A DNA stretch of 24,600 nucleotides from a virus, in the IMG/VR virus record IMGVR_UViG_3300033064_007026, positions 1-24,600 of that record. The stretch is one strand, 5' to 3'. The notes beneath the pieces are model-generated. The model was not told where the DNA came from. It saw only the letters and a program-made list of their open reading frames with translations, and did not search any database. The first letter of the stretch is position 1. Each line of letters begins with the position of its first letter. This document shows, one piece after another, positions 7,949 through 21,588 of this stretch. Position numbers and translations under genes: made by a program.

Positions 7949-7956
7949 CTTTAAAC
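7949..7956 (-). promoter_or_regulatory. GTTTAAA box upstream of the 1213-residue structural gene
   Basis: Minus-strand GTTTAAAG followed by AGATAATAG lies just after the stop of the 361-residue gene, 50 nt before the GTG at 7906. It is one of nine similar boxes in the window (see findings). Reading it as a promoter element is inference. Confidence 0.5.
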
Positions 7957-7958
7957 AC

Positions 7959-9044
7959 TCAGCGTAAACATTCTGGGGGGAGGGTTCCGTCCAAAACATC
8001 AAGTTCACGGGAACTTAGGACCTTGGGAGGATCTCTTAGGCTCTCCTCGGATCTAGTGGTTAAGTCCTCGGCAACTGGGTTAAATTTATAAGGCCTAGGG
8101 ACTTCTACATAATGTCCCTGAGAACCGATTTCAACAACATCGTAGCCTTCAATAGGTTCTTTACGTCTTTGGTACTCAAGGCATTTGTTTCGGTCGGTGT
8201 CTACGCAGTAAAATTTTTGCCAGAACTCTGTGTCTGGAAGAAACTTTTTATAGATCTCTAGGTTTTCTTCAGTTGCGGCCAAGTCTTGAGTAACTATGTA
8301 CAAACACAAGGTATCTTCGCAGGGCCCATAGACAATAAACATATCACCTTCTCTGTAGAAAAAGTCCCTTCGCACACGCGCCTCACTCCACTCATCGGTG
8401 GAGAGATTGCGGATGCATTTTTCAAAATCCGCAAAAGAAAGCCCCTGGGCCATACAGTTTGCCTGCGAAATTTGCTTTAAAGGTTCTTGCCATTCCGCAT
8501 TATATTCTCCCCAGTCTTTATTAAAAAGCTCTAGGTTGTAAAGTTTAAACCTATCTAGTAATTCTGCAATGGACGGAATGCCCACAGGAACCGTTGTCTC
8601 CACTTGGCAAATTTTTGTCCATTTTGAGTAGTTAAATGCCCAACTCATTGCCAAGATATTTTGGTTTGCCTGATAGAGAGAGACCCTATACCCGTCGTCC
8701 TCAATGTATAGGACCCGCGATCCGATAGGATAGGCTACTATGGCTCGGTAGGTGGCTACTTTCCACTTATCGTTTGTTTGAGATGATAGAAGATTAGGTG
8801 TAAGATTTCCGATCTCCCACGGAAATTCTATATCCCCCCAGGATTTATATAAGCCTTTTTGCGGATCGTAAATCGGATAGGTATTGAAGAGCTCTTCGAT
8901 ACTTACGCCACAGGTATTTATGCTTTCCCTAGAGCAACTTTTATCAACAACGTCATTTACAAGACAGGCTTGTCTTAGCGATTTTAACTGCTTAGGGGTT
9001 AAAAAAGTACAGCACTCCCCTGTAAAAAGGCTAAGATCCGCCAT
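7959..9044 (-). CDS. cysteine-rich virion-associated protein with duplicated beta module
   Basis: I do not recognise this 361-residue protein as a named family. It has 13 cysteines, including C11-C12. Two stretches look like copies of one module: residues about 99-150 (Y-x-x-G-S-R-V-L-Y ... SKWTKICQVET) and about 227-283 (Y-x-x-G-D-x-x-I-V-Y ... EFWQKFYCVDT). The spacing of Gly, Tyr and the closing Trp resembles small chitin-binding (CBM5/12-like) folds, a weak comparison. A similar stretch occurs in the 1308-residue protein at about 208-242. The gene sits between the tail tube-like gene (25 nt gap) and the 1213-residue structural gene, so a tail or baseplate role is inferred. The sequence before its ATG offers only a weak ribosome site (TAGG). 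Confidence 0.6.
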   Translation of the reverse strand: MADLSLFTGECCTFLTPKQLKSLRQACLVNDVVDKSCSRESINTCGVSIEELFNTYPIYDPQKGLYKSWGDIEFPWEIGNLTPNLLSSQTNDKWKVATYRAIVAYPIGSRVLYIEDDGYRVSLYQANQNILAMSWAFNYSKWTKICQVETTVPVGIPSIAELLDRFKLYNLELFNKDWGEYNAEWQEPLKQISQANCMAQGLSFADFEKCIRNLSTDEWSEARVRRDFFYREGDMFIVYGPCEDTLCLYIVTQDLAATEENLEIYKKFLPDTEFWQKFYCVDTDRNKCLEYQRRKEPIEGYDVVEIGSQGHYVEVPRPYKFNPVAEDLTTRSEESLRDPPKVLSSRELDVLDGTLPPECLR

Positions 9045-9069
9045 AAAAGATAACCTAGCTTAATTTAGC

Positions 9070-9498
9070 TTAATTATAGGTAAAGGTATCCAGCACGAAC
9101 GTAAGTTCAATGGTGGAGGGGTTGGCAGAAGTACGATCAGCTTGGCCAAAGTTCAGGCTGGTTACCTGGGCATCGGGAATTGTGATTGTACGTTGGCCGA
9201 TTGGCTGGGGGTCTTCACCACAAGTCACCGGTGTCACAGTCACGGTGACAAATTCACATCCATATGCCTTCCAAAAGTCGACGATATCGGCGTGCTTAAC
9301 GGGGTCAAATGGTGTGGCAATAGTAACTTCTGAGAGAGTTCTTGGGCCCTTCAGGTTAAAAATACGTCCGCGGACTCCGTCGGCGTATTGGGAAGTACCA
9401 GCAGTATCGCGAATACCACTGAAGTTTGTGAAGTAATGGGAAAAAGGCGAGGCCTGAATCCAAAACTGGCTTTGGCTAGAGATTTTATAGTTGAGCAT
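9070..9498 (-). CDS. tail tube-like protein (T4 gp19-type family, probable)
   Basis: This 142-residue protein is close to the usual length of contractile-tail tube proteins (T4 gp19 is somewhat longer). It begins MLNYKISSQSQFWIQASPF and continues as short beta-strands with a central ATPFDPVKHADIVDFWKAYG helix, ending in TIELTFVLDTFTYN. The order of a beta N-terminus, a helix carrying D-x-x-D-F-W and a C-terminal beta strand is what I expect of a tube monomer. The gene follows the portal gene directly, and a sheath gene is present at 21623. It has its own GTTTAAA box 41 nt upstream of the ATG. No strong Shine-Dalgarno precedes the ATG. A baseplate tube-initiator or other tube-fold protein is the main alternative. 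Confidence 0.68.
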   Translation of the reverse strand: MLNYKISSQSQFWIQASPFSHYFTNFSGIRDTAGTSQYADGVRGRIFNLKGPRTLSEVTIATPFDPVKHADIVDFWKAYGCEFVTVTVTPVTCGEDPQPIGQRTITIPDAQVTSLNFGQADRTSANPSTIELTFVLDTFTYN

Positions 9499-9531
9499 GG
9501 CGGGACGGCTTATGCGTTATATCTATTTAGT

Positions 9532-9539
9532 ATTTAAAC
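9532..9539 (-). promoter_or_regulatory. GTTTAAA box upstream of the tail tube-like gene
   Basis: Minus-strand GTTTAAATACTAAATAGA lies 41 nt before the ATG at 9498. It resembles the boxes before the portal gene (GTTTAAAGATACTAAAG) and the 123-residue gene (GTTTAAATATAAATAG). Confidence 0.5.
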
Positions 9540-9541
9540 AA

Positions 9542-9554
9542 AGCGCTTGGCGCT
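9542..9554 (-). terminator. short GC hairpin after the portal gene
   Basis: On the minus strand AGCGC-CAA-GCGCT forms a perfect 5-bp stem with a 3-nt loop, directly after the portal stop codon, followed by TTGTTT. This is the geometry of a weak intrinsic terminator. Its T-run merges into the GTTTAAA box of the next gene, so it could separate portal and tail transcription. The stem is short, so the call is tentative. Confidence 0.35.
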
Positions 9555-9555
9555 A

Positions 9556-11481
9556 TTACATAAAATAAGGCGCAAAGGGTGCCCAATATCCCGCTTTTTT
9601 ACAATCTACCACAACACACTCATTGTGAATGACCTTGCGATTCAGCCTATAGGTCTTCTTATAAAGCTCGAGAAGTTTCTCTACCGTTTCGCAATCCACA
9701 TCATCAACTCTAATCGACCCTTCAATTGTGGCCAGGGCCTGCTCCAACTCTGTTTTGATGAAGTTGTCTTCTACGTCAATATACGCGACCTTCTTAATTT
9801 CCTCGATGAGCCGCCTTGTGCCAAACGCAATCTCCCCTGGCGAGGTATACTCATCAAGGCGAATTTTAGCAACTGAGGCCTCCGAAAGCCCAGTGTCTGC
9901 GATGATCCGCTCATATCCAACGTCATCGAGCGTTCCGTCAAACTTCGCCGCAATAAGCTGAGAAATTTTATCCTTCTTGGTTTTGTCAGTGAGGTCGTTG
10001 TCTTCATCAAACTCAGAGAAGTCGAAGAGGGTGAGAAGGTCTGACTGATCGGCTCCAAAGGCACCCATAGCTCCGTTAGAACTATCGGCCATCTGCTCGG
10101 TGGTTTTTGCCTCGGACATTGGTGCCGCGCCAGGAGCCCCTGGTGCTCCGCCCATCATCGCGCTCATGTCCACTTTTGCCAGAGACGGAATCTCAAGTTT
10201 ATCCCGCACCCAATCAAGGTCTTTGACCTCATAACCAACCGCTTGGAGCTGGGTGAGCATTTGGACAATTTTGATGGGATCCTCGCGTTGCTCCAGATCA
10301 TCGAAGTTGCGGCGGAGTCTGGGTACTGGGGCTCCGGGGTAATTGAGTTCTACGATCCAGCGAATGAGCGTAGCGTTAAGTGTCTCATCTAACTCCTCTG
10401 AGAAGGCCTTGGCTTTACGCATACGCACGGAGTCGGAAACCTGATCACGGGCATAAGATCCTACATTGCCGGTCTCCTGACCCACAGTATTCTCCCCGTT
10501 GATAATAAAGCTAATTTGCTGATCTACATACTCGATGAGCTTTTCATATACCTCCGAGCGCCCTTGGCTCTCAAGCCAATCAATTTCCATCTCATTGGGG
10601 ATGACAATTGCGGTCTCTTGGCCCAGGCGCTGGAGCGCCGTAAATAGCGAATTAACCTCTTCCTCCGGAGTGCCAAGAGAGAACTTACCCACCGCAGTTG
10701 GTGTTGTATGCTTATCTGCATACTGCAACCAGAAAGACAGAAGAGTTCTTCTAAACTCTACCAAACTGAATAAGTGACGGCCCAACCCCGTGCCATACGG
10801 GTCCATAAAATTACTATAGGCCCAGTGGCGATGGATGACCACAGAACGGAGGGGTAGTGGAATTCCCTCTACGGGCGAACTTACGGTCATCAAGCGGGGG
10901 CTAATTGTTCCGTCTTCGTTGAGAACAAAAATAAACCGCCGGGGGTCACGAATTTTAATTTCCGAGGGGACTATGTAATTTCCCTGCCTCATCCAGCAAA
11001 TTTCACCAATACCAATACCTAGAATGAGCGATTCGCACAGTCCTCTTATAAACGCGTCAAACGCCGAGTTTGAAGACACAAGCATTTCTTTGCCATAAGC
11101 TTGCCGTGTATTGGTGCCCATGCGATAGAGTACTTGGCGAACAAATTCAGCTACCTCCTCATCGCGGTCGGATGCACTTGCGGGGTCAATTTGCCATTTG
11201 CGTTGTATAATTTCTCCCGTAAGTTTTTCCCATGCAGAAATAATTTGGCTGTCGTTAAACAACCGCATGTATTTCTCAATTGCCCTCGGGCCCCCACCAC
11301 CCTCTTCAATGAGGATGTCATCTCTGCGTGGGAGAATAAGTCCTGATGCTAAATACGATGTTCCGGTAAAAGCGTATGGATCGCCTTTGTAACCCGCTAA
11401 GCTGCCTTGGCCCACTCCGAGGCTAAAGTAGCGATCAAAGTGCCCAGTTTTTGGTTTTGCACCAGGACGTTCCTCGGCCAT
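9556..11481 (-). CDS. portal protein, Mu gp29 / DUF935-like
   Basis: This 641-residue protein would form the dodecameric ring at one capsid vertex through which DNA is packaged and to which the tail attaches. DUF935-type features appear in order: a ring of residues around EKLTGEIIQRKWQIDP (about 84-99), an FIRGLCESLILGIGIGEICW segment (about 143-162), DPRRFIFVLNEDG (about 178-190), FWLQYADKHTTPTAVGKFSLG (about 250-270), AIVIPNEMEIDWLES, and YEKLIEYVDQQISFIINGE followed by a Ser/Arg helix. About 200 residues follow the core, including a Gly/Ala/Pro/Met linker near 440-470 and an acidic helical tail, longer than the usual core. Start ATG at 11481, with TAGG about 8 nt upstream. A GTTTAAA box lies 44 nt upstream, inside the end of the previous gene. 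The family call is strong from motif order, but no search was run. Confidence 0.85.
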   Translation of the reverse strand: MAEERPGAKPKTGHFDRYFSLGVGQGSLAGYKGDPYAFTGTSYLASGLILPRRDDILIEEGGGGPRAIEKYMRLFNDSQIISAWEKLTGEIIQRKWQIDPASASDRDEEVAEFVRQVLYRMGTNTRQAYGKEMLVSSNSAFDAFIRGLCESLILGIGIGEICWMRQGNYIVPSEIKIRDPRRFIFVLNEDGTISPRLMTVSSPVEGIPLPLRSVVIHRHWAYSNFMDPYGTGLGRHLFSLVEFRRTLLSFWLQYADKHTTPTAVGKFSLGTPEEEVNSLFTALQRLGQETAIVIPNEMEIDWLESQGRSEVYEKLIEYVDQQISFIINGENTVGQETGNVGSYARDQVSDSVRMRKAKAFSEELDETLNATLIRWIVELNYPGAPVPRLRRNFDDLEQREDPIKIVQMLTQLQAVGYEVKDLDWVRDKLEIPSLAKVDMSAMMGGAPGAPGAAPMSEAKTTEQMADSSNGAMGAFGADQSDLLTLFDFSEFDEDNDLTDKTKKDKISQLIAAKFDGTLDDVGYERIIADTGLSEASVAKIRLDEYTSPGEIAFGTRRLIEEIKKVAYIDVEDNFIKTELEQALATIEGSIRVDDVDCETVEKLLELYKKTYRLNRKVIHNECVVVDCKKAGYWAPFAPYFM

Positions 11482-11488
11482 TGATTAC

Positions 11489-11698
11489 CTACTCTGATTC
11501 GCCTATGTCTTTAGTATCTTTAAACTGGGAAGAGGCGGACCGATCTATATAAACTACCTCGGCATCGAGGATTTTTGCGTATAGTTCGTTTGCAGTCATT
11601 TTGCCATTGTTGTAGTCTTCGATGAGCTTGTCGGCCCCATCCACAATGAGCGGTTGTGAGTTGGTAAGAATATTAATACCGGTTTGTTCTGTGTTCAT
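11489..11698 (-). CDS. small acidic protein of unknown function upstream of portal
   Basis: This 69-residue protein contains LIVDGADKLIEDYNNGKMTANELYAKILDAEVVYID, split by charged residues, and reads as two short helices. Its ATG overlaps the stop of the 327-residue gene (ATGA), a usual sign of coupled translation. It ends 7 nt before the portal start. The last codons carry the GTTTAAA box placed upstream of the portal gene. Its position directly before the portal gene suggests a head or packaging accessory, but the sequence shows no recognisable domain. Confidence 0.65.
   Translation of the reverse strand: MNTEQTGINILTNSQPLIVDGADKLIEDYNNGKMTANELYAKILDAEVVYIDRSASSQFKDTKDIGESE
11518..11525 (-). 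promoter_or_regulatory. GTTTAAA box upstream of the portal gene
   Basis: Minus-strand GTTTAAAGATACTAAAG lies 44 nt before the portal ATG and inside the coding end of the 69-residue gene (Gln-Phe-Lys-Asp codons). Because it is coding, the match could be chance, but its spacing fits the other boxes. Confidence 0.4.
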
Positions 11699-12678
11699 TG
11701 CTTAGACCATTCTTTTTGTAATTGTTCTGTTTCTTTTATAAGTTCCTTAATCATCTCCGGCCACTTTTGTTCATAGGAGGCCAAGTAAATATGCCATTTT
11801 TTTGGCCATTCTGCTATGGTGAATTTGTGGTCTAGTTCTGGTGGTGGTGTGGAAGTAAAGATTTTACGTAATGCCCCCACCCCCGCTGCAATGAAATTGT
11901 ATCGATTTTTTGTATAGTATTTTTCTAAGACCTGGGAAGGGACTTGGGGAAACCTCTCTTTAAAGGCCTCAAAGAGCGGGGAGTTTTTAATATCTACACG
12001 TTCTTCCTGAACCGCTTTTTGATTTACGTACTCATATGCTTCGTCTAGTTGTTCTGCGATGAGTGTTACATTGAATGGGCACTGCTCATAGTCATTTATT
12101 TCTTTCCAGAACATCTTTAATGAGTCATAAGCTGCAACGATGCTATGCTTAGAAAACTTTGATAGTCTGTCCGCAAGATCCTTTCTAAGGCTCTCTATGA
12201 GATGGATGTCTGTAGCTTCGGGCCATTTGGCCGCCCTGTGAGAACATCCACTTGCCCATAAAAATGCCAAAAGGAGAGTTTTGATTCGGCCCTCTCTTAA
12301 GTCCTTGAGAGGGAGGAGATTGTTGTTTTGAATATATGTATACCACTGCTCAAAGAGTTTAGAAGCGCGCTCATTTGCCCCCTCCCAAACCTTAGTTTTT
12401 GATATTAGGCCCAGGTGTTTGTCATTACAAGTCCCATATGAACTTAATAGATTAAACTCCCGATCTTCTTCTGTAATTCCCTCAGGTGCCTCAGCGATTT
12501 TTCCAGAGGCTGAGTGGCCCTTTCTCAGGGCGCTTCTCACCCCTTCTAGTTTTATTTCGTGCGCAAATGTTGCTTCTGTTTTCCAACGGTCATGTGCTAG
12601 GATCATCTCCAGGTACTGCAGCCCCTGATCTTTTTGTGGAAGAGTCAAGATTGTTTGCAGTGTCTGAAGAGGTTCCAA
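11695..12678 (-). CDS. unknown mostly helical protein, 327 residues
   Basis: I do not recognise the family. The protein is predicted helical by eye, with many Glu, Lys, Leu and aromatic residues, and includes LLLAFLWASGCSHRAAKWPE (about 146-165) and a Trp/Lys-rich C-terminus. It stands at the head of the leftward block before the 69-residue gene and the portal. The longest frame uses TTG at 12678 and overlaps the 171-residue gene by 89 nt in another frame. An ATG at 12609 (codon 24) would cut the overlap to 20 nt, but neither start has a good ribosome site. Its position could suit a packaging or head protein; that is inference only. Confidence 0.6.
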   Translation of the reverse strand: MEPLQTLQTILTLPQKDQGLQYLEMILAHDRWKTEATFAHEIKLEGVRSALRKGHSASGKIAEAPEGITEEDREFNLLSSYGTCNDKHLGLISKTKVWEGANERASKLFEQWYTYIQNNNLLPLKDLREGRIKTLLLAFLWASGCSHRAAKWPEATDIHLIESLRKDLADRLSKFSKHSIVAAYDSLKMFWKEINDYEQCPFNVTLIAEQLDEAYEYVNQKAVQEERVDIKNSPLFEAFKERFPQVPSQVLEKYYTKNRYNFIAAGVGALRKIFTSTPPPELDHKFTIAEWPKKWHIYLASYEQKWPEMIKELIKETEQLQKEWSKQ

Positions 12679-13105
12679 GACGGCGAAGAGCTATGTTTAT
12701 ATACCCTATTATATCATTATGGGACCACGTGTCAATGACTTTGTTAAAAAGTTTAGGATCAATGCGCCCGAGGTCAGCGCCAGCAGTCATAATATAATCG
12801 AGATGGGTTTGGATGGATTGCCCTGGCTCATCATAGAGGAACAAAGTTGGTCCTTCGTTAGGCTCACACGTTTCTACAACGCTCATTGCCTTAAATAGTT
12901 CGGAGAGGATGGTCGTATCATAACCACAAAAAACGATAAAGTTTGTTTTGCGAATTGTGGGTTCTGTGAGACTTTGACGGATTTTTAGATCAACGCCATC
13001 TTTTTCAGTTAGCATTTGTTCTAAATGCACGGCCATTTTATTGATATCGGATTCGGCGTTTATATTCGGGCCTTTAAGCAATACCACCGAGAGCTTCAAT
13101 TGCAT
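12590..13105 (-). CDS. unknown protein, possible Rossmann-like fold
   Basis: This 171-residue protein alternates predicted beta strands and helices: LKLSVVLLKGP at the start, TNFIVFCGYDTTILSELFKA (about 53-72) and PTLFLYDEP (about 86-94), followed by a helix and WSHNDIIGYINIALRR. The strand-G-x-x-x-x-helix arrangement is compatible with a small Rossmann-like or SLOG/LOG-type fold, but I see no intact catalytic motif of those families. The last 30 residues are rich in Ser, Asp, Asn and Gly, and overlap the next gene. The start ATG at 13105 lies at the edge of an 11-bp inverted repeat shared with the divergent gene at 13173. Function unknown. Confidence 0.6.
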   Translation of the reverse strand: MQLKLSVVLLKGPNINAESDINKMAVHLEQMLTEKDGVDLKIRQSLTEPTIRKTNFIVFCGYDTTILSELFKAMSVVETCEPNEGPTLFLYDEPGQSIQTHLDYIMTAGADLGRIDPKLFNKVIDTWSHNDIIGYINIALRRLGTSSDTANNLDSSTKRSGAAVPGDDPST

Positions 13106-13152
13106 AAACTTTAAATTCTTGTCATAACTTTAACCTTGAAGTTTAAAGTTTA
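13105..13152. repeat. 11-bp inverted repeat in the divergent intergenic region
   Basis: TAAACTTTAAA at 13105-13115 is perfectly repeated in inverse as TTTAAAGTTTA at 13142-13152, with 26 nt between. A third, partial copy (AACTTTAA) starts near 13125. The repeat lies between divergent genes and overlaps both candidate promoter elements, so it could be an operator or a shared recognition site. It could also simply be two facing copies of the GTTTAAA-like box. Confidence 0.5.
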
Positions 13153-13164
13153 GAAAAGTATTAT
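13136..13164 (+). promoter_or_regulatory. candidate promoter of the 1308-residue gene, includes a GTTTAAA box
   Basis: GTTTAAAG at 13141-13148 lies 32 nt before the ATG at 13173. The same region also reads as sigma70-like TTGAAG, a 17-nt spacer and TATTAT, with TATACT just overlapping. If the sigma70 reading is right the transcript would be nearly leaderless, because the -10 element ends only 8 nt before the ATG. No Shine-Dalgarno is present, which fits that. The two readings exclude neither each other nor a false match. Confidence 0.45.
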
Positions 13165-13172
13165 ACTAAGAT

Positions 13173-16100
13173 ATGAACTCGGCACTGATCGAGAGACTAA
13201 AAATTGCCGGGGAGCGCATTGTTGCCGAAGGAGTTGCTCAGTACGAACGTAAGTTTGGTAGGTTTCTTGTCAGTTTAATAAAAACAAACTTAGAGGGGGC
13301 ATTTTTAGAGTTATTAAATGCAATACTAGACCGAGTTGAGACAGACGAAGAACTTACAATTTTACCCCTTAAGCAAATTTTACTTCAAGTAATATTTGAA
13401 TTAGAATTCAATTCGGTAAAGGCAACTCAGGTTACAGATGAAGTTTTTGCCGCTCTTTATAAAAAGATCGAATCAGAGCCTAATTATGACGCCGATTTTG
13501 TCGGAAAACTTAAAGTATATCAAACTCTCATCTCTGAGGCGTTTAGTGACTTAGAGTTTTTTAGTTCTTCGTCGTCTCAGGATATTCTCAGAGAAACCGT
13601 AGAATATCAGTATTCTAATAAAAAGTACTCTTTTATTCCTTTGGAAATAGATGAAAATCGTAGGGTATTTACGCTTTTTTCCAAAGAACGTTATTGGGAG
13701 ACATTTGCCACGCTCTCCGATACTACCTCATATTCTCCGCTGAGATATAATAGATCAGCAACTCTGCTAGGCCTCCCACAATACAGAATTTCCATCTCCT
13801 ACGAAGATCTCATTGTCTACAATAATGTCCTTTATAAACTTAATCCGGCAGTCTCTTCTCCCAACCGTGAGCAATTTATACCGGAGCAATGGGTAGAGTA
13901 TAATTCCCGCAGATTTGATCGCTCAAAATCTTTTTCTTCAGTACATAAATCCCGTATAAGAACACTCTACTCTACATTTTTAGAACAAGGATTTGATATC
14001 AATGAAATTATCTCCGATTCTAAAATTGAGAAGTTTGATCAGGCACAAAGCATAGATTCCGAACTCCTCCCACTCACTTTTGGTGGGCAAGGAAAGCAAA
14101 TCTACGATACCATTAAAGAACTTGAGGTAATATCTGAAGCTTTTGGGGGATATGAAGGTTCGCCCATTGGGGGAATTGAATATGCCACACAATACATAGA
14201 GTATTTGTTAGCCTCTGCGTTTGGTCGCAAAATTGAAGAAGTGTTTAACGTCGCGTTAGGAGCGGAAGACTTTGGTAAATTTAATGTTATTTTTTCTTCA
14301 AAGTTTTCCCAAGACAGTATTCCTGGACTAAGTTTTTTGAGCGAGTTTGGAAAGCTTCGCTCCTTTATCCATGGACAAATTCTACCAGAATACGTAAATA
14401 TCTCTAAGCCTAAAATTATATACAATCCAACTTATGTACAATTTTACTTAGGATTAGAAGATCGGTACTCAAGTTCAACGGTTCCAAACACGTACTCAGA
14501 ACCCCCAAGAGTGGATCTTTTGCTCTATGGAATAGAGACCCTACATAGGAGATGCCTGGCAATTGGGGACAATATAAACGCAATTTTAAATTTTACCGGG
14601 GATGGCGGAAAACTCCTCGGGTACGAGGGACTAGGTTCCATTGAAATGCAAATGACAGAATTGCAAAATGTATTTCCGCCAACGTCTTATTTTCTAGAAT
14701 CACAAGTAAAAATTGGAGCAGGACTTACAGGCGTAACCAAGTACCTCTTAGACTCATACTCTAGATTTTCAAAGGCGCTAGTGTATCCAGAGTTGCCTGG
14801 AAAGGCTCTTAGTTTTCTCCCTAAGTGGATAGACTCAATTAACAACCAACTAGAAGAACTTATTAGTCTTTTTAAAGGCATTGGCATAGGTTCTAAGAAC
14901 TATATCCCAAACCTTTCCTTCAGACAATTTGATATCAAAGATACAAAACTTGTTCAATTCTTATCCTCTTTGGGGTTTAGAGACTCGGAAATTAATCAGT
15001 TACTTGACATACAATCTTTTGATCAGTTAATTACCAATTTTGCCCCACTATCCAACTCTTCAGATCTTAAGTCTTTTTTCAAAGCGTATGAATTGTCTCA
15101 GCTCATATACGAATTTGGTGGGGATGGAGGCATCTCTGCATATCTTTCATTCTTATATTCTAAGTCTCCCGTAGACTCATTATTAAACATTCTGTCTCTA
15201 TCGCAAAAAGACCGCTCAAGTATTACGAGTTTGCAAATTAGTAAATATCCCAAACTCATCGGTTTGTTGATTGGGTTAACATACGCAATTGATCCCACCC
15301 AACTCATTAAGTTCAATAAAATCCTAGGAAAAAATAATCTCACTCTTCTAGAATCGATTGAATTCTTATACCAGAAGGGAGAGAGCACTTTAATAAAGTC
15401 GGAACAAGATATAAGCCTATTAGAACCTATAATAGAGCAAATTATTCAGGGTAATTATACGGATTCGTTTGCCTCGCCTGACTTAAATTATTCGCAAACA
15501 AATGCCACAGTGCCTATCGCCCTTAGGCAGTGGACTGAACTCATAGGTGACAATTTAGGCCAACTACCCTCGCCCGAGGTGATTAGGCATCTCTATGACA
15601 GATCTATTGGACTTACGCCCAAAGAACTCATTTCGATCTTAAATAATCCAACCTCCCCGACCCCATTTGGCGAACTAATTGACGGATTTTCTGGCGGTGA
15701 GTTTACACAGTTTATTAAGTACGCCAATATTTCTGGTTTGGCCGTAAAACTAAGTTACTATAAAAACTCCTACCAAGTGGATAATTTTCCTGTTGATATA
15801 GAATCTACTTATTTTACTTTGCCGATTCTTCTACAGAATTTAGAGGAGGCGAAAATTGCCATTTCATTAATCGGAACAATTTTTCAAGGAAAATTAGATT
15901 TTAGATCTAGCGAAGAAGGAAATATTCAAGAAACAATTAAGCCATTAGTATTTTCGCAAAATAAATCATTTGAGGTTTTTTCAGAAATTATTAAGGCCGT
16001 TGCCCCGATAAAAGGCACTGGTTTTACCACAAGTCTAACACAAAACTCAAGTAGTTTTTCTAATACTGCGGCCGAGGCCCCTATCATAGAATCACCGGGT

Positions 16101-17099
16101 ATTGGAAATTCTCGTCTGCCTAATAGAATACCGGCCCTCAACTCTATTACTCCGGAGCAGTTTGAAGCTTTATTTGGATTGCCCATCCAGGCCCAAATTC
16201 AAAATATAGTTGAGGATATAGTTACCCCCAGCATCATTAATAATTTCATCAAATTTTCAGATGAAAATAAACTCATCAATGCCATAAACCAAGTTGATGA
16301 AACTCTTCCGTATAGAGTTACGCGTTCAAAATCTACGCCATACTCACCAGCAACTCGTTATGAGACAGAACAACGGGTCGGGGCATCAACCCCCATCTTT
16401 TATTCTGTTCCTCAAATTTACGTAGATTCAAATCTTTCAGGAGCATCAGATTTTTCAGGAGCATCAGATTTTTCAGGAGCATCGGGTGGAAAGTTTATTC
16501 CCTCACAAGATGAAAGTTTAACTTCTCCGTTGCAAAAAAGGTTCGATCCTATAGAATCATGCAAAAGATTTGGCGGAACAAATTGCGATTCTATTTTTGA
16601 AGGAATTGCCAATCTTTGCATATCTGGATATAATAAGTCCCTTTTCCCCGAGGAACCCACTCAAAGAGCGGGAATTTCAGACAACACGGTGTTAATCGAC
16701 CGGCCGCTGGGAACTTTTGCAGATTACAAACCAAGTCAGTCTTTGCTTCCTACATCCGCTTTTAAATCCCCTCCGCCATACTACTCACTTCTTGGCGGAG
16801 ACGCTATTCCTGGGCGTTGGGGAGAACCTGTTATGCCATTTATTAGGTCTGCTCCTGTTGTCTATGATTCCGGAAACGGGGCACTAAGCGAATATGGAAA
16901 CTCAGAACATGGCATTATAGAATTTATTAAGGCAAAACTTGGAAAAGATACGGAGTTTAATTGCGCAACGCTAGATTCTCCTTTCTACTATCAAATTTGC
17001 ATGAATATTATGAAATGTAAAAGGTTTGTTCCACCAGAGCAGGGGGAGTATTATCTCAAGTTCTGCCCTAAAACTCTTTCTGGAGGTAGGTTGAAATGA
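13173..17099 (+). CDS. very large protein of unknown function (1308 residues), probably virion-associated
   Basis: I do not recognise this protein. The N-terminal 150 residues are helical and charged. Residues about 208-242 hold YEDLIVYNNVLYKL followed by FIPEQWVEY, a short beta module similar to those in the 361-residue protein. The long middle is rich in Ser, Leu, Ile, Phe and Asn with many short predicted helices. SGASDF is repeated three times (last copy SGASGG) at about 1089-1106. The C-terminal 180 residues carry cysteines, including two CKRF motifs (about 1130 and 1280). No clear transmembrane segment or long coiled coil is visible, so a standard tape measure is possible but not supported. 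The next gene overlaps it by four bases. Start is ATG at 13173 without a Shine-Dalgarno. Its size and place between tail genes suggest a structural or injected virion protein. Confidence 0.75.
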   Translation: MNSALIERLKIAGERIVAEGVAQYERKFGRFLVSLIKTNLEGAFLELLNAILDRVETDEELTILPLKQILLQVIFELEFNSVKATQVTDEVFAALYKKIESEPNYDADFVGKLKVYQTLISEAFSDLEFFSSSSSQDILRETVEYQYSNKKYSFIPLEIDENRRVFTLFSKERYWETFATLSDTTSYSPLRYNRSATLLGLPQYRISISYEDLIVYNNVLYKLNPAVSSPNREQFIPEQWVEYNSRRFDRSKSFSSVHKSRIRTLYSTFLEQGFDINEIISDSKIEKFDQAQSIDSELLPLTFGGQGKQIYDTIKELEVISEAFGGYEGSPIGGIEYATQYIEYLLASAFGRKIEEVFNVALGAEDFGKFNVIFSSKFSQDSIPGLSFLSEFGKLRSFIHGQILPEYVNISKPKIIYNPTYVQFYLGLEDRYSSSTVPNTYSEPPRVDLLLYGIETLHRRCLAIGDNINAILNFTGDGGKLLGYEGLGSIEMQMTELQNVFPPTSYFLESQVKIGAGLTGVTKYLLDSYSRFSKALVYPELPGKALSFLPKWIDSINNQLEELISLFKGIGIGSKNYIPNLSFRQFDIKDTKLVQFLSSLGFRDSEINQLLDIQSFDQLITNFAPLSNSSDLKSFFKAYELSQLIYEFGGDGGISAYLSFLYSKSPVDSLLNILSLSQKDRSSITSLQISKYPKLIGLLIGLTYAIDPTQLIKFNKILGKNNLTLLESIEFLYQKGESTLIKSEQDISLLEPIIEQIIQGNYTDSFASPDLNYSQTNATVPIALRQWTELIGDNLGQLPSPEVIRHLYDRSIGLTPKELISILNNPTSPTPFGELIDGFSGGEFTQFIKYANISGLAVKLSYYKNSYQVDNFPVDIESTYFTLPILLQNLEEAKIAISLIGTIFQGKLDFRSSEEGNIQETIKPLVFSQNKSFEVFSEIIKAVAPIKGTGFTTSLTQNSSSFSNTAAEAPIIESPGIGNSRLPNRIPALNSITPEQFEALFGLPIQAQIQNIVEDIVTPSIINNFIKFSDENKLINAINQVDETLPYRVTRSKSTPYSPATRYETEQRVGASTPIFYSVPQIYVDSNLSGASDFSGASDFSGASGGKFIPSQDESLTSPLQKRFDPIESCKRFGGTNCDSIFEGIANLCISGYNKSLFPEEPTQRAGISDNTVLIDRPLGTFADYKPSQSLLPTSAFKSPPPYYSLLGGDAIPGRWGEPVMPFIRSAPVVYDSGNGALSEYGNSEHGIIEFIKAKLGKDTEFNCATLDSPFYYQICMNIMKCKRFVPPEQGEYYLKFCPKTLSGGRLK
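16437..16490 (+). repeat. three 18-bp in-frame tandem repeats (SGASDF)
   Basis: The unit TCAGGAGCATCAGATTTT occurs at 16437 and 16455, with a third copy from 16473 that diverges at its end. It encodes a Ser/Gly/Ala linker before the cysteine-bearing C-terminal part of the 1308-residue protein. The first two copies are identical, suggesting recent duplication. Confidence 0.85.
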
Positions 17100-17914
17100 C
17101 ACAGAAACTCCACTCTTTCTTCAAGGTAACCAAAGAGTCTAAGCAGATGTCTTTTGGGAAAAAAACGCCTCACAATTTTAACTATGTAGATTTTGTAGAC
17201 CCAGAAAATATTTATTTTAGCAATAATGCAACTCTACATAAGCAAATGAATGATTCTTATTTGCTAGAGATTGATCTTGATGATAGATATAAATCCACCA
17301 TACCAGAATTTAAATTTACAAATCAAAACGTTCTTACTTGGGAAGATTATTGGATCAATGCTAAAACCAATAACCTAATAGACCCACGCATTGAAAAAAT
17401 TAACTTACAAAAAAACCAACTCGTCCATGCCAATTTTAACCTTTCTAGGCAGGTTCTTACTCACGTAAATCTCGAAGGAAATCTAAATTTACGTGGAGTG
17501 TTTTTTTATAATTGCCCCAAACTCGAGGTACTTAATTTGTCTAATTGCCCTGCGCTTGACGTAATTAATTTGGGAAATAATAGATCCCTTAAGGCATTAT
17601 TGGCCAAAAATTGTGCCTTAACCCCCGCTGCGCAAGAATTTTTACTCAGAGATTTTTGCCCAGTTACCACCTCGTCTAGCAATAGGCCGTTTGAGATGTT
17701 TCGCAAATCTTATGAAACTTTAGTGGATTTGAGGGGGAGTCAAATTGACTGGGGAAATAGAAAAATTGCTTCTAAAATTAGATTATTACTTTGCAATAAT
17801 TGGCTGGTTTTGTGGGACAATCCCCCACCAACTTCTATCATCCCTCCTCAAATGTACGCGTTTTTTTCGACTAACTTATCTGATTCTCTGATTAAAGATT
17901 ATTACTACAATTAA
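17096..17914 (+). CDS. leucine-rich-repeat protein
   Basis: This 272-residue protein has a short LRR array at about residues 98-175. Successive units read LTHVNLEGNLNLRG, PKLEVLNLSNCPALDVINLG and RSLKALLAKNCALT, with the spacing of a curved beta-sheet protein-binding surface. The flanks (1-95 and 180-272) are not recognisable; they contain aromatic residues and WDNPPPTSIIPP near the end. The ATG overlaps the stop of the 1308-residue gene (ATGA), with GGAGG 10 nt upstream, so the two are probably translated together and may act together. LRR domains bind proteins. The partner could be a virion component or a host protein. The array is short, so the fold is likely but the role is unknown. Confidence 0.72.
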   Translation: MTQKLHSFFKVTKESKQMSFGKKTPHNFNYVDFVDPENIYFSNNATLHKQMNDSYLLEIDLDDRYKSTIPEFKFTNQNVLTWEDYWINAKTNNLIDPRIEKINLQKNQLVHANFNLSRQVLTHVNLEGNLNLRGVFFYNCPKLEVLNLSNCPALDVINLGNNRSLKALLAKNCALTPAAQEFLLRDFCPVTTSSSNRPFEMFRKSYETLVDLRGSQIDWGNRKIASKIRLLLCNNWLVLWDNPPPTSIIPPQMYAFFSTNLSDSLIKDYYYN

Positions 17915-17946
17915 TAATAGTCACAAATAGAACCTGGAAGCATGTG

Positions 17947-17954
17947 GTTTAAAG
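17947..17954 (+). promoter_or_regulatory. GTTTAAA box upstream of the 17988 gene
   Basis: GGTTTAAAGAAAGA begins at 17946 and matches 14 of 14 bases of the box before the chaperone-like gene at 20511. It lies 41 nt before the proposed ATC start but 89 nt before the next in-frame alternative, TTG at 18036. Only the first value falls in the range of the other boxes. Confidence 0.55.
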
Positions 17955-17987
17955 AAAGAGATAGCTTAGTATAGCGAGGAAAGGAAA

Positions 17988-18848
17988 ATCGCGGATTTAC
18001 GTAAACGATTTATCGAGGACTATGCTGGCGGCCTATTGAATGTGGCGCGGCAAGAACTCTCCACCACCGGCGAAGTACTGGCACAAGATGGACTTACGTC
18101 CGAAAACACTTTATTTGTAGAAGATGGTAGCGGAACAAAAACAGGTCTCAAACTCGGCGTAAGTTTGGCTGAGGCAGTAGACCCAACAACCGAAACTGGG
18201 TTAGTTAATGTACGCTTTGCCGATCGCACCTACGCAAAACTTCGGGACCTTAAAATTTTCTCCACGGCAATTGCATCGGCCCAAGCAGCGCTCTCAGAAG
18301 CAGCGTCAGTTTCCATCTCTAATTTAGAGACGACTCTACAACTTCTTGAAGACGACATCTCCACCGTAGAACAAAATTTTCAACAAAATTTGGTTACCAG
18401 TCAAGAACAACTTCAAAATCTAACTCTTACCCAAAGAGACTTAGAACAAAAATCTGCTGAGACTGACATAGAAATTGCCCAACTAGGCTCTAGAGTTACT
18501 AAACTTGAGTCGCCCGTTGAATCCCCAAAAGAACTTGATCTTTTTGAAGAAAATACAAACACATTTTATTACACCGGGACTATAGCAATTGCCAATAGCG
18601 TAGTTACTGGAACCAATACCGCATTTACGGAATTAAAAGTAGGAGACATATTCATAACAACAACTTCGGCAGGAGAGGATGTAGAATTTAGAATTACTAA
18701 CATTACCGACAATACGCAACTTAACGTTACCCCTACAAACAAAACCGTTACTGCAGGTTCTAGATTTAGGCAATCACGTGAACTTCAACTCATTAAAAAA
18801 GTTAATGATATTCTCAAGGTTATGAAAGGCCTAGAGTTCATTATATAA
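17988..18848 (+). CDS. coiled-coil virion protein with a C-terminal beta module; apparent ATC start
   Basis: The frame is open from 17970. The peptide from 17988 reads (M)ADLRKRFIEDYAGGLLNVA, a plausible natural N-terminus, but its first codon is ATC. No ATG or GTG exists in frame upstream of TTG at 18036, which would remove 16 residues. GAGG lies 8 nt before the ATC. Residues about 90-170 form a long coiled coil (many Gln, Glu, Leu, Thr). Residues about 194-261 hold a beta module with GTIAIANSVVTGTNTAF and NITDNTQLNVTP that is also present in the tail sheath. The length from ATC is 286 residues. Its 3' end overlaps the convergent 120-residue gene by 18 bases. Likely a structural or fibre-linked protein; I recall similar N-termini in cyanophage proteins. 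A base error (ATG read as ATC) is the main alternative to a true ATC start. Confidence 0.72.
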   Translation: MADLRKRFIEDYAGGLLNVARQELSTTGEVLAQDGLTSENTLFVEDGSGTKTGLKLGVSLAEAVDPTTETGLVNVRFADRTYAKLRDLKIFSTAIASAQAALSEAASVSISNLETTLQLLEDDISTVEQNFQQNLVTSQEQLQNLTLTQRDLEQKSAETDIEIAQLGSRVTKLESPVESPKELDLFEENTNTFYYTGTIAIANSVVTGTNTAFTELKVGDIFITTTSAGEDVEFRITNITDNTQLNVTPTNKTVTAGSRFRQSRELQLIKKVNDILKVMKGLEFII

Positions 18849-19193
18849 ATCGTTAATAATTTCGTCTATAAGCTCAATATCGATCCGAATTGAATATAGA
18901 GGGCCTACTTTTCTAAGGATAAAAAACACAATGCCCGTAGACTTTTCCTCCTCGGTAGGAAAAAGACTTTCCCGTATTTTATCATAGGCATCTTTTCCGC
19001 CTACCATCTGATACACAGTATCAAAATCAAAAACCCAAAGGCAGTCAGATCGATCCGCTGTTGCTATGTAAAGAGCAAATGGTGTTCGATGTGCCAACAC
19101 ATACTCTAAGCATTCGACTGTTTCCGAAAGATTTCTTGTGTTTCTTAAAGATTCTTTGAGGGACCGTTTTTCCTGCTCTGAGTTAATACTCAT
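18831..19193 (-). CDS. unknown 120-residue protein
   Basis: No family recognised. A charged N-terminal helix precedes LSETVECLEYVLAHRTPFAL and CLWVFDFDTVYQMVGG, then FFILRKVGPLYSIRIDIELI. The alternating strands and helices suggest a small alpha/beta domain. Its ATG overlaps the stop of the dCMP deaminase gene by four bases, so the two are probably translated together. The 3' end overlaps the convergent 17988 gene by 18 bases, leaving no room for a terminator between them. Confidence 0.62.
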   Translation of the reverse strand: MSINSEQEKRSLKESLRNTRNLSETVECLEYVLAHRTPFALYIATADRSDCLWVFDFDTVYQMVGGKDAYDKIRESLFPTEEEKSTGIVFFILRKVGPLYSIRIDIELIDEIINDLYNEL

Positions 19194-19600
19194 GGGACTT
19201 GCTGCGTAGATACACCTAGCTGGTCCAAAACATCCAATCCTTCCGTTATTCTATAGGCGTGTTTATAATATACTTTTTTAACTCCACTTTGTGCAAGAAG
19301 TTTTGAGCACTCTGGGCACGGAGAGTGAGTGCAAAACAACTCAGCGCCTTCAATGGACTCTGTAGATTTTGCCATCTTGACTAGGACATTCTGCTCAGCA
19401 TGAAGAACAAATGGGGATGTGGTTCCGTCTTCTAGTTCGCAAACATTAGTCCTAAATCCACTCGGAGTGCCATTCCATCCATGTGCTAAGATTGAGCCGT
19501 TTTTAACAATAATTGCGCCTACTTTTAATCGCTGACACTCCGACACCTGGGCAAATCTTTCTGCAATATCCATGTATGCTTCAATCAGTCGTGGCTTCAT
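19190..19600 (-). CDS. deoxycytidylate (dCMP) deaminase
   Basis: This 136-residue enzyme would convert dCMP to dUMP, the substrate of thymidylate synthase, in the cytoplasm during phage DNA synthesis. The zinc signature is intact: H67-A-E69 with catalytic Glu 69, then P94-C95-P-E-C98, giving His 67, Cys 95 and Cys 98 as ligands. KVGAIIV (about 26-32) and HGWNGTPSGF (about 40-49) match the substrate-binding region of the dCMP deaminase branch rather than cytidine or guanine deaminases. The family often reads HAExNAI; here it is HAEQNVL. It is slightly shorter than T4 dCMP deaminase. It stands among genes of unknown function, and no thymidylate synthase is in the window. Start ATG at 19600 lacks a clear ribosome site. 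TATGAT/TATAAA stretches in the 36-nt gap could serve as a promoter. Confidence 0.88.
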   Translation of the reverse strand: MKPRLIEAYMDIAERFAQVSECQRLKVGAIIVKNGSILAHGWNGTPSGFRTNVCELEDGTTSPFVLHAEQNVLVKMAKSTESIEGAELFCTHSPCPECSKLLAQSGVKKVYYKHAYRITEGLDVLDQLGVSTQQVP

Positions 19601-19636
19601 CTGAATGGGTGGGCAAAAGGACTTTTTATAATTCTA

Positions 19637-19837
19637 TCATACTTTTCGCGATCTGCTGCCACCCAAGCCCAATTTATTTACGAGGTGTTTGTTGAGTTTT
19701 TGAAGGAGGCGTTTGTCTTCTTCGCCAAGAAATACTTTTCCTGTGGGTGGTGGGGTGGGCGAGGACTCAGTGGGTGTAGTTGCCAAAATAGGTTGTGGGG
19801 GCGGAGGAATAGGTTTGCGTTTGCGCGAAGTTGTCAT
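19637..19837 (-). CDS. small proline-rich basic protein
   Basis: This 66-residue frame has a Lys/Arg start (MTTSRKRKPIPPPPQPI), a Pro/Thr/Ser middle and a C-terminal helix with EEDKRLLQKLNKHLVNKLG. GGAGG lies about 13 nt before the ATG, inside the end of the previous gene, from which it is separated by 4 nt. No family is recognised. The compact packing in a leftward cluster supports it as real, but its small size and low complexity leave doubt. Confidence 0.52.
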   Translation of the reverse strand: MTTSRKRKPIPPPPQPILATTPTESSPTPPPTGKVFLGEEDKRLLQKLNKHLVNKLGLGGSRSRKV

Positions 19838-19841
19838 TATT

Positions 19842-20030
19842 TTATCTTAGCCTCCGGCATGAGCTGCAAGACCGGTATTCAGCAGGCCGGCGTAATCCTG
19901 CTATGGGTTGTTGATGAGGCGCTTCTCTAAGACCTGTTGCCAACGAAGAAGGCTTTGAGGCCTGCTGAGCCCACTTCTTCCAGCTCTCAACTTCTTTTGA
20001 AGAAGAGATGTAGTTGGGAAAATTTTGCAT
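19842..20030 (-). CDS. small protein with W-x-x-W-A motif (copy 1)
   Basis: This 62-residue protein carries SWKKWAQQASKPSSLATGLR (about 16-35). The downstream part of the 123-residue neighbour has a matching WQQWAEEF and SSSALATELKEE, so the two probably share a short functional element. After the motif the sequence becomes Arg/Cys-rich (RSCSSCRRLR) and less protein-like; no alternative frame looks better. AAAGGG lies 9 nt before the ATG, and a GTTTAAG variant box lies 30 nt before it. Function unknown. Confidence 0.58.
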   Translation of the reverse strand: MQNFPNYISSSKEVESWKKWAQQASKPSSLATGLREAPHQQPIAGLRRPAEYRSCSSCRRLR

Positions 20031-20053
20031 AATACAACACCCTTTGTTTCTAC

Positions 20054-20060
20054 CTTAAAC
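20054..20060 (-). promoter_or_regulatory. variant GTTTAAG box upstream of the 62-residue gene
   Basis: Minus-strand TTTTGTTTAAGGTAG lies 30 nt before the ATG at 20030 and differs from the consensus at the last base of GTTTAAA. It is the weakest of the nine boxes. Confidence 0.35.
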
Positions 20061-20071
20061 AAAAAATCAAC

Positions 20072-20443
20072 CTAAGTTGAGGCCCCTTCGACTTTGTTTG
20101 TAGGCCTATAGCTTTTTCCTGGAATCTCCTGATCGAGGTATTCTTCTTTGAGTTCGGTGGCCAACGCCGAAGACGATCTAAGAGGGTCAAACTCCTCGGC
20201 CCATTGCTGCCAGCCCCACATATCCTCCGAACCTACAACATGTGGAACTTCCGGCGTCCCATTGGCCATTTGGGCTCTGGTGTTTCTTAGGGGGCCAGGG
20301 TTAACCCTGTCGGATGAGGTAAGATACTCAGATTGGGAAAGTTGTTGGCGGACTAAAGACGTTACTTGGGTATCCGTAGATCTATAGTCGGAAGTTTCTT
20401 GTAGATGCTCCCACTTTCTATAGGGATTAGAGTTAACGGCCAT
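20072..20443 (-). CDS. small protein with W-x-x-W-A motif (copy 2)
   Basis: This 123-residue protein starts at ATG 20443, chosen because AAAGGA lies 8 nt upstream and a GTTTAAA box 32 nt upstream. A longer frame begins at 20740 but would overlap the divergent chaperone-like gene almost entirely. The N-terminal half is polar (NSNPYRKWEHLQETSDYRST). Residues 76-100 hold WGWQQWAEEF and SSALATELKEE, related to the 62-residue protein. The end is YRPTNKVEGAST. Polar, Asn/Pro-rich sequences with isolated Trp suggest a small virion or scaffold-binding protein, but no family is recognised. Confidence 0.68.
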   Translation of the reverse strand: MAVNSNPYRKWEHLQETSDYRSTDTQVTSLVRQQLSQSEYLTSSDRVNPGPLRNTRAQMANGTPEVPHVVGSEDMWGWQQWAEEFDPLRSSSALATELKEEYLDQEIPGKSYRPTNKVEGAST

Positions 20444-20467
20444 ATTATTCGTCCTTTCTCTATTTAT

Positions 20468-20475
20468 ATTTAAAC
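20468..20475 (-). promoter_or_regulatory. GTTTAAA box upstream of the 123-residue gene
   Basis: Minus-strand GTTTAAATATAAATAG contains TATAAATA, which equals the T4 late promoter core. It lies 32 nt before ATG 20443 and 6 nt from the facing box of the rightward gene at 20511. Confidence 0.55.
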
Positions 20476-20481
20476 AAAAGG

Positions 20482-20489
20482 GTTTAAAG
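20482..20489 (+). promoter_or_regulatory. GTTTAAA box upstream of the chaperone-like gene
   Basis: GGTTTAAAGAAAGA lies 29 nt before the ATG at 20511. It is back to back with the box for the leftward gene. Confidence 0.55.
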
Positions 20490-20510
20490 AAAGACACTGT
20501 TATAAACACT

Positions 20511-20882
20511 ATGGCAACAAGCAAAATGACTCGAGAGTCTTCGGGAATAACGGTTACCTCGACTGAGATCGACGACGATCTTTTTAACTTTGGGGAGGCA
20601 GAGATTATTCCTGTTGAGGTTGCTCCTGGTAAGTATCTTTGCCTAAAAGAACCTACTGCTAGCGACTTAATTGAAATTAGCAAAATTTCCGATAATAAAA
20701 ATATCTCAGAGGTAGAAGCAACGCTGCAAACTATTTGCATTCTTCACGCTCCCAACCCAGGAGAACGGCGCTTATCCCTAAAAGATGCCAAAAGATTGCG
20801 CCCTAGGCAACTAAGGAAGCTCGGAGAGGCAATTAATACCCTGCTTGGTATGGATGACGCGGATGACGCGGAAGAAACCTGA
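20511..20882 (+). CDS. tail assembly chaperone-like protein (gpG-type, probable)
   Basis: This 123-residue protein has an acidic N-terminus, then VEVAPGKYLCLKEPTASDLI and a helical second half containing LSLKDAKRLRPRQLRKLGEA. A phage-type sequence of about 120 residues with a leading P-x-A-x-(D)-L segment and a final helical part including a D-x-x-x-L pattern is typical of tail assembly chaperones that coat the tape measure during tail assembly. It is followed by an out-of-frame, overlapping second frame, the classic arrangement for these genes. The next genes are an 80-residue protein and the sheath. In lambda and Mu the pair is followed by the tape measure gene, which is not the case here. 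The stop is TGA at 20880. Confidence 0.6.
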   Translation: MATSKMTRESSGITVTSTEIDDDLFNFGEAEIIPVEVAPGKYLCLKEPTASDLIEISKISDNKNISEVEATLQTICILHAPNPGERRLSLKDAKRLRPRQLRKLGEAINTLLGMDDADDAEET

Positions 20883-21315
20883 GCAACTTGAGGTAATTCG
20901 TAATCCTAATTACACAATTAGTGTGATTGATCAAGTAGGCAGAGTTTTTATCTTCTCTGACATTTGTGGTAGCAACCTAGAACTCCTGGAGAGCATTTTA
21001 AATCCTGAAGCCACAGAAAAAGAAGAACCTATCTCCGTCAGCATGGAAGGAATAGTTGCCATTCTTAACCTTCTTAATGTGCAGGAGTTTGATTTTATTT
21101 GCCTTCCTCGTAGAATTATTTTTAAAATTTTTTCAGTTATCAAGGAGCATATACTTTGCAACTACGTCTCAAAGACAAATTGGTTAAAAATTTGTTACGG
21201 GATACAAAACGGATCTTTTTGTAATGTTTTAGCGATGGAATCTGTCCCTATGAGTAAATTTATGGCTATGTACCAAATCCACAAAGAAGCCATTGCCGCA
21301 ATGGATAAAAACTAA
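20854..21315 (+). CDS. second tail assembly chaperone reading frame, possibly made by frameshift
   Basis: The frame is open from 20815 to TAA at 21313 and lies +1 (equally -2) from the frame of the previous gene. Independent starts could be ATG 20854 or 20863, within a 9-bp tandem repeat ATGACGCGG; TTG 20845 is also possible. None has a close ribosome site, the nearest GGAGAGG lying more than 20 nt upstream. From the ATG at 20854 it encodes 153 residues, with a charged start then VIDQVGRVFIFSDICG, DFICLPRRIIFKIF and KTNWLKICYGIQNGSF near the end. These features and the overlap suit a gpT-like extension of the upstream chaperone. A shift in 20815-20882 would give a fusion of about 267 residues. 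A separate protein is equally possible. Confidence 0.58.
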   Translation: MTRMTRKKPEQLEVIRNPNYTISVIDQVGRVFIFSDICGSNLELLESILNPEATEKEEPISVSMEGIVAILNLLNVQEFDFICLPRRIIFKIFSVIKEHILCNYVSKTNWLKICYGIQNGSFCNVLAMESVPMSKFMAMYQIHKEAIAAMDKN

Positions 21316-21317
21316 TA

Positions 21318-21560
21318 ATGACAGATTCTGAAAAACTCAAACTTATTCTCATATTATGTTCAATTTGCATGAAGCAAGACGTAGTAGAACTGAAGGCTTT
21401 TGTTAAAGTTAATGCTCGGTACGTTGATACAAATGATTTTAATAAGATCCTGCGCAAATCCATGAAGCTAATGGAGAATAAGCGTTGTGGAACAACCTCT
21501 TGCCCAGACTGGCTTATGAATGAGCTATTTTGCTTTTATAAACTTGATTTTGTTAACTAA
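21318..21560 (+). CDS. small protein of unknown function between chaperone pair and sheath
   Basis: This 80-residue protein starts 2 nt after the previous stop (TAATAATG), so translation is probably coupled. It reads as helices (TDSEKLKLILILCSICMKQD) with four cysteines: CSIC near the N-terminus, and Cys residues six apart in CGTTSC near residue 60. The cysteines could bind a metal, but the pattern is not a standard zinc finger. Its place next to the tail genes suggests a tail-assembly or baseplate role. Confidence 0.6.
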   Translation: MTDSEKLKLILILCSICMKQDVVELKAFVKVNARYVDTNDFNKILRKSMKLMENKRCGTTSCPDWLMNELFCFYKLDFVN

Positions 21561-21580
21561 ACAGTTTTAAATCGTCTGTT

Positions 21581-21588
21581 GTTTAAAG
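21581..21588 (+). promoter_or_regulatory. GTTTAAA box upstream of the tail sheath gene
   Basis: TTGTTTAAAGATAAAAG lies 42 nt before the ATG at 21623. It would give the sheath gene its own promoter, in keeping with the high copy number of sheath protein. Confidence 0.55.

Follow-up and report, generated by a model that had tools for sequence, protein, structure and literature searches.

A conserved GTTTAAA box as putative late promoter of S-TIM5-like cyanophages

The window analysed in this work is the complete IMG/VR virus record IMGVR_UViG_3300033064_007026, 24,600 bases long, and covers part of the genome of an S-TIM5-like cyanomyovirus (Aurunvirus). Our subject is a GTTTAAA box that lies about 35 nucleotides (nt) ahead of particle-building genes across this lineage. 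The box is most likely a start signal for late genes, and its predicted reader is a sigma factor that the virus itself makes and that differs from the one of T4. We consider it likely that its full form, GTTTAAAG, is the -10 core of the Aurunvirus late promoter, read by the S-TIM5 sigma factor gp108 in a cascade that leads from host sigma70 over the phage sigma to virion genes. This reading is drawn from the motif, its location, its conservation, a bias towards virion genes, the co-occurrence with a single sigma factor and the contrast with T4-like phages; recognition by gp108, the +1 position and the timing are predictions.

Placement, enrichment and conservation of the box

Eight GTTTAAA boxes and one GTTTAAG variant were listed in the original prediction, and all were found on the strands given there. 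The coordinates were correct for the plus strand and off by one for the minus strand (e.g. 7950-7956, not 7949), and the distances from the G to the start, said to be 29-50 nt, agree with those measured. The 7-mer is present as described, but the consensus has eight bases, and a variant site, GGTTAAAG at 13135(-), had been missed; most orthologues have GTTTAAAG at about the same place. The sites are (aa, amino acids; ORF, open reading frame):

7950..7956, minus strand: GTTTAAA(G) box, exact match, 50 nt to the GTG at 7906 of a 1213-aa tail-fibre-like gene
9533..9539, minus strand: GTTTAAA(T) box, exact match, followed by TAGATATA; 41 nt to the ATG at 9498 of the tail tube gene
9518..9525, minus strand: TAGATATA, lying 14 nt past the box G as the tube promoter's second element, which is found clade-wide; probably the melting or start region
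11519..11525, minus strand: GTTTAAA(G) box within the 3' end of a 69-aa ORF, 44 nt to the portal ATG at 11481; 7/7 orthologues
13128..13135, minus strand: GGTTAAAG variant box, 30 nt to the ATG at 13105 of a 171-aa gene
13141..13147, plus strand: GTTTAAA(G) box, 32 nt to the ATG at 13173 of a 1308-aa gene; GTTTAAA or GTTTAAG in 7/7 orthologues
17947..17953, plus strand: GTTTAAA(G) box in a stretch that relatives lack, 41 nt to the start of the coding frame at 17988 (ATC)
20054..20060, minus strand: GTTTAAG(G) variant box, 30 nt to the ATG at 20030 of a 62-aa ORF
20469..20475, minus strand: GTTTAAA(T) box, divergent pair with 20482, 32 nt to the ATG at 20443 of a 121-aa gene; 7/7 orthologues
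20482..20488, plus strand: GTTTAAA(G) box, 29 nt to the ATG at 20511 of a 123-aa gene; 7/7 orthologues
21581..21587, plus strand: GTTTAAA(G) box, 42 nt to the sheath ATG at 21623; 7/7 orthologues (4 as GTTTAAG)

The raw count of the 7-mer was rejected as evidence, as it is not significant: the window holds 11 copies, where dinucleotide shuffles average 7.0 and at least 11 copies are reached in 9 of 100 shuffles. The chance expectation of about three given in the original prediction was therefore too low. Placement was evaluated on the sense strand in 39-nt windows, 24-62 nt upstream of 22 starts. Eight of the 11 copies fall in this zone against 0.19 expected (p = 1.3e-12), or 9 of 12 when GTTTAAG is counted too. 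Copies away from starts are indeed few, namely 5624(+) and a palindrome at 8543/8544 which counts twice, all inside genes. Scanning of the window with a 26-column model was not selective alone, as shuffles reach a score of 18.0.

The comparison of upstream regions with shuffled sequence, which had been proposed together with the prediction, was carried out on seven long clade genomes (S-TIM5, S-TIM54, G001, G002, G004, G005 and G007) with a GC content of 40-56%. Each 7-mer in the region -65 to -22 of genes was compared with its own genome-wide count. Genes of unannotated contigs were called by a simple ORF picker, while the gene-class tests made use of the deposited S-TIM5 annotation. GTTTAAA ranked first among upstream 7-mers in all seven genomes, with counts seen and expected of 25 and 1.4 (S-TIM5), 27 and 1.4 (S-TIM54), 26 and 1.3 (G007), 18 and 1.1 (G004), 15 and 0.7 (G001), 14 and 0.65 (G005), and 11 and 0.6 (G002). 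G005 and G002 have a GC content of 53-56%, and the enrichment is therefore no artefact of AT-rich sequence. A de novo mixture motif search in 956 upstream regions returned GTTTAAAG with a log-likelihood ratio of 563, compared to 87 for the best shuffled set. Enriched variants of this consensus include GTTTAAGG (13 upstream copies clade-wide, 0.45 expected), GATTAAAG, GTTTAAAT, GTTTATAG, GTCTAAAG and GGTTAAAG (10 copies, 1.0 expected).

GTTTAAA is not an enriched upstream word in T4, S-PM2 and Syn9, each of which has ATAAATA, or in S-CBWM1, which has GGGTAAAA. Expectation maximisation on T4 and S-PM2 upstream regions gave other repeats and did not recover their late core, and was for this reason left out of the comparison between phages. 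The record MW495066, named Microcystis phage MaAM05, carries genes for a ribosomal protein, ispH and trpS and looks cellular rather than phage.

Conservation was followed at individual promoters. At the tube promoter GTTTAAA is found in 30 of 30 viral-contig loci, and none of the eight box columns varies among 19 distinct sequences, most flanking columns being conserved at 40-80%. Across six window promoters (tube, portal, 1308-aa gene, the divergent pair 20475/20482 and sheath) GTTTAAA or GTTTAAG is kept in 42 of 42 orthologues, and the GTTTAAG of four sheath orthologues supports the variant at 20060(-). Window genes without a box, i.e. the 361-aa gene and the deoxycytidine monophosphate (dCMP) deaminase gene, also have none in relatives; upstream of the latter, relatives carry TGATATAAT or a close variant.

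The box is also biased towards one class of genes. In S-TIM5 it precedes 18 of 47 virion or packaging genes and 10 of 165 others (Fisher p 2e-7), and TATAAT precedes 6 of 16 replication or nucleotide genes and 4 of 47 virion genes. These opposite leanings make two promoter classes visible by sequence. Taken together, clade-wide enrichment, orthologue conservation, virion-gene bias and a geometry like that of T4 late promoters (see below) strongly support the phage-specific late promoter that had been suggested.

Virion genes of the window were confirmed by PHROGs searches as portal, tail sheath, tail tube and tail-fibre genes, among them:

9070..9498, minus strand: tail tube gene (PHROG tail tube, E 9e-6)
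9556..11481, minus strand: portal gene (PHROG portal, E 5e-85; 62% identity to S-TIM5)
21623..24598, plus strand: tail sheath gene, extending past the window end (PHROG tail sheath, E 6.5e-274)

The portal is equally 62% identical to those of S-TIM54, S-TIM61 and S-TIM66 (Aurunvirus) and distant from those of other phages; the 89-kb contig G001 is a near relative with a portal identity of 96%. An 803-aa protein of structural type at 1486-3897 (-) has long collagen-like G-x-Q-G repeats.

The stretch of about 70 nt at 17914-17990 (+) that carries the 17947 box lies between two genes and is absent from relatives such as G001. It replaces the ATG of the relatives, and the downstream frame opens with ATC after a good Shine-Dalgarno sequence; this ATC at 17988 is a rare start codon, or else the assembly is wrong here. 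The two boxes at 20469-20488 stand back to back between divergent genes, an arrangement kept in all relatives checked, with a larger spacing in S-TIM5 and S-TIM54. Since the boxes are only 6 bp apart and the arrangement is kept, the two divergent promoters may compete for polymerase.

Position of the box and the element past it

The distance from the shared TAAA to the ATG is the same in several phages, with medians of 32 (T4), 32.5 (S-CBWM1), 33 (S-TIM5) and 32.5 nt (G007). AT content peaks just past the box, at +8 to +21, also in the GC-rich relatives. Offset 11 from TAAA, which is the T4 +1 position, is preferentially a purine. A conserved -35 upstream of the box was not accepted, the signal being diffuse (log-likelihood 108 compared to 72-78 in shuffled sequence) and partly due to neighbouring or divergent boxes. 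On account of the T4-late-like spacing to the ATG, the AT-rich DNA downstream and the lack of a clear -35, GTTTAAAG is probably in -10 position.

A second element, TAGAtatA, is found mostly 13-14 nt past the box G (log-likelihood 130; 34-39 in shuffled controls). As TAGATATA it covers 13 to 20 nt past boxes, e.g. at 9518-9525 (-), and keeps a near-fixed distance to the box, not to the start codon. It may be the start region, assist melting or form the RNA 5' end; a start at or near TAGA would agree with the favoured purine, the AT peak and the position of the element. In other phages the TAGA signal is suggestive in S-PM2 (p 0.002), is not seen in T4 or S-CBWM1 and not clearly in Syn9, and given this S-PM2-only signal TAGA was dropped as a general feature across phages.

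A different register, which we regard as unlikely, takes GTTTAAAG as the -35 of a SigB/SigF-type promoter and TAGATATA or TATA as its -10, so that transcripts would begin close to the start codon or right at it. In Bacillus, SigB/SigF-type promoters have GTTTAA as their -35 word, the phage sigma is SigF-like, and a conserved element does lie past the box. Boxed genes are furthermore poor in Shine-Dalgarno-like sequences (20/101 compared to 309/856 of other genes in S-TIM5, G001, G002, G004, G005 and G007, p 9e-4). However, this leaves a spacer of only about 8 bp if TAGATA is the -10, or 12 bp if it is TATA, and where the box lies 27-34 nt from the ATG many genes would be leaderless or nearly so. 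The spacing from TAAA to ATG is moreover that of T4 late promoters, and in S-CBWM1 a related sigma is paired with the -10-like GGGTAAAA at the same place.

Even less probable is that the box binds an accessory activator or a host regulator, in the manner of MotA, which recruits host sigma70 polymerase to virion genes. T4 middle promoters, where the activator MotA recruits host sigma70 polymerase, are a precedent, and an AT element is present downstream; but this element is not a TATAAT at fixed -10 spacing, and host-type TATAAT is mostly found at other genes. A host regulator is disfavoured because S-PM2 and Syn9, infecting the same host genus, lack the box.

The sigma factor gp108 and a proposed cascade

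The candidate reader of the -10 core is gp108, the single sigma factor found in the clade; each of the five long relatives, G001 among them, has a copy with 64-66% identity. Sigma regions 2 and 3 are present in the protein. Among curated families cyanobacterial SigF scores best (E 2e-11), matched over regions 2-3 only and with 44 bits against a cut-off of 261; the GenBank record of S-TIM5 likewise labels gp108 as SigF. The sigma operon consists of gp107, with a thioredoxin domain, followed by gp108. In 7/7 genomes a host-type extended -10 (TGGTAYAAT) lies ahead of it in the form TGGTATAAT or TGGTACAAT, and there is no GTTTAAA box. Such a promoter at the sigma operon fits a cascade from host sigma over phage sigma to virion genes.

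In the mechanism we propose, gp107-gp108 would be transcribed from the host-type TGGTAYAAT promoter by host sigma70 polymerase. Host RNA polymerase with the SigF-like gp108, or its orthologues, would then recognise GTTTAAAG at the virion genes, with no clear -35 element taking part, and melt the AT-rich segment directly past the box. The first transcribed base would be a purine some 11 nt past the T of TAAA, which leaves a leader of about 20 nt.

Several observations weigh against this reading. About 60% of the annotated virion genes have no exact box, a gap that operon structure and variants would need to explain. A simple -10-only promoter does not account for the TAGATATA element. According to a weak model the C-terminal part of gp108 could represent a region 4 in degenerate form, and a -35 contact would then be possible; the AlphaFold model (mean pLDDT, predicted local distance difference test, of 60) is too weak to settle this, and its Foldseek matches are sigma factors in general, with a root-mean-square deviation of about 19 A. 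Finally the window, being a fragment, contains no sigma gene.

Recognition of the box by gp55 and the sliding clamp, as at a T4-type late promoter, is highly improbable. Like T4 late promoters, the box stands in -10 position with AT-rich DNA downstream and without a conserved -35 (PMC2988020). The core is however not TATAAATA, and no relative of gp55 or gp45 was found in S-TIM5 in searches where the positive controls matched. Queries with gp55 of the cyanophages S-PM2 and Syn9 matched T4 gp55 (E 1e-20) and nothing in S-TIM5, and profile comparison of gp108 with gp55 gave a probability of 0.1%. The Pfam clamp model PF02916 was uninformative, as it missed Syn9, and T4 gp45 was used with tblastn instead; it matched Syn9 (2e-22) and S-PM2 (2e-14) and nothing in S-TIM5, G007 or S-CBWM1, where a very diverged clamp could escape. 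The DNA polymerase of the clade groups with phrog_17/pol I-type families. One box copy contains TATAAATA, which had been taken as a hint of the T4 late core. This is a coincidence of AT-rich spacer letters running into the TAGA element: the core is upstream of only 1 of 212 S-TIM5 genes, and G001 has TATAGATA at that site with GTTTAAA still kept.

Chance or base composition, to which the raw count alone would point, is a negligible explanation in view of the placement, the enrichment in seven genomes and the 30/30 conservation, which holds also at 53-56% GC.

Comparison with known promoter systems

In the literature searched, which excluded the original S-TIM5 genome paper so that a prior mention is possible, no description of S-TIM5 promoters was found, and neither was a transcriptome of an S-TIM5-like phage. 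The box would give the first predicted late regulon for a widespread marine cyanophage lineage and names one sigma factor, gp108, as candidate reader. Being a short DNA sign, it can serve to spot virion genes of unknown function in metagenomic fragments.

The T4 late promoter (TATAAATA; gp55, the 83-aa co-activator gp33 and the gp45 sliding clamp) takes the form ATAAATA in the T4-like cyanophages S-PM2 and Syn9. The box resembles it as one short element in -10 position at virion genes, at equal distance to the ATG, followed by AT-rich DNA and lacking a clear -35. It differs in the core GTTTAAAG, in a SigF-like sigma instead of gp55, in that no gp45 relative was found, in the extra TAGATATA, and in the few Shine-Dalgarno sequences, which 15 of 19 T4 late genes possess. 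The box is also unlike the TATAAT-like -10 of host sigma70 type.

Promoters of cyanobacterial SigF, a group 3 sigma, have TAGGC (-32) and GGTAA (-12), and Synechocystis SigF recognises GGTAA in the -12 region (PMC2758279). The predicted reader of the box is a distant SigF relative, and the two cores share a G followed by TAA. In contrast to SigF promoters the core is GTTTAAAG, and neither TAGGC nor GGTAA turns up, be it as the box itself or in the k-mers enriched upstream of it; gp108 is far below the SigF family cut-off, with a region 4 unrecognised by sequence.

The closest parallel is S-CBWM1 (Aokuangvirus), one of whose two sigma genes encodes a homologue of gp108 (hhalign E 5e-8, residues about 23 to 201 aligned). 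Its top upstream word, GGGTAAAA (18 compared to 0.9 expected), has the same distance to the ATG and is apparently an undescribed promoter of that phage. It has G..TAAA in common with the box and differs by GGG for GTT and by lacking the TAGA element. GGGTAAAA at this spacing, together with the SigF GGTAA at -12, supports the -10 register of the box, and the pairing suggests that the cores used by related phage sigmas differ while retaining G..TAAA. We see about an even chance that cyanomyoviruses hold a second, independently built late switch. In it a SigF-like sigma of group 3, perhaps acquired from a cyanobacterium, would have lost clear -35 reading and come to recognise one -10 core only, which is GTTTAAAG in Aurunvirus and GGGTAAAA in S-CBWM1. 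The T4 late layout would have been reached by convergence, without gp55 or clamp. The homologous sigmas of S-TIM5 and S-CBWM1, with their different cores, are a natural pair for studying how sigma regions 2-3 set -10 specificity.

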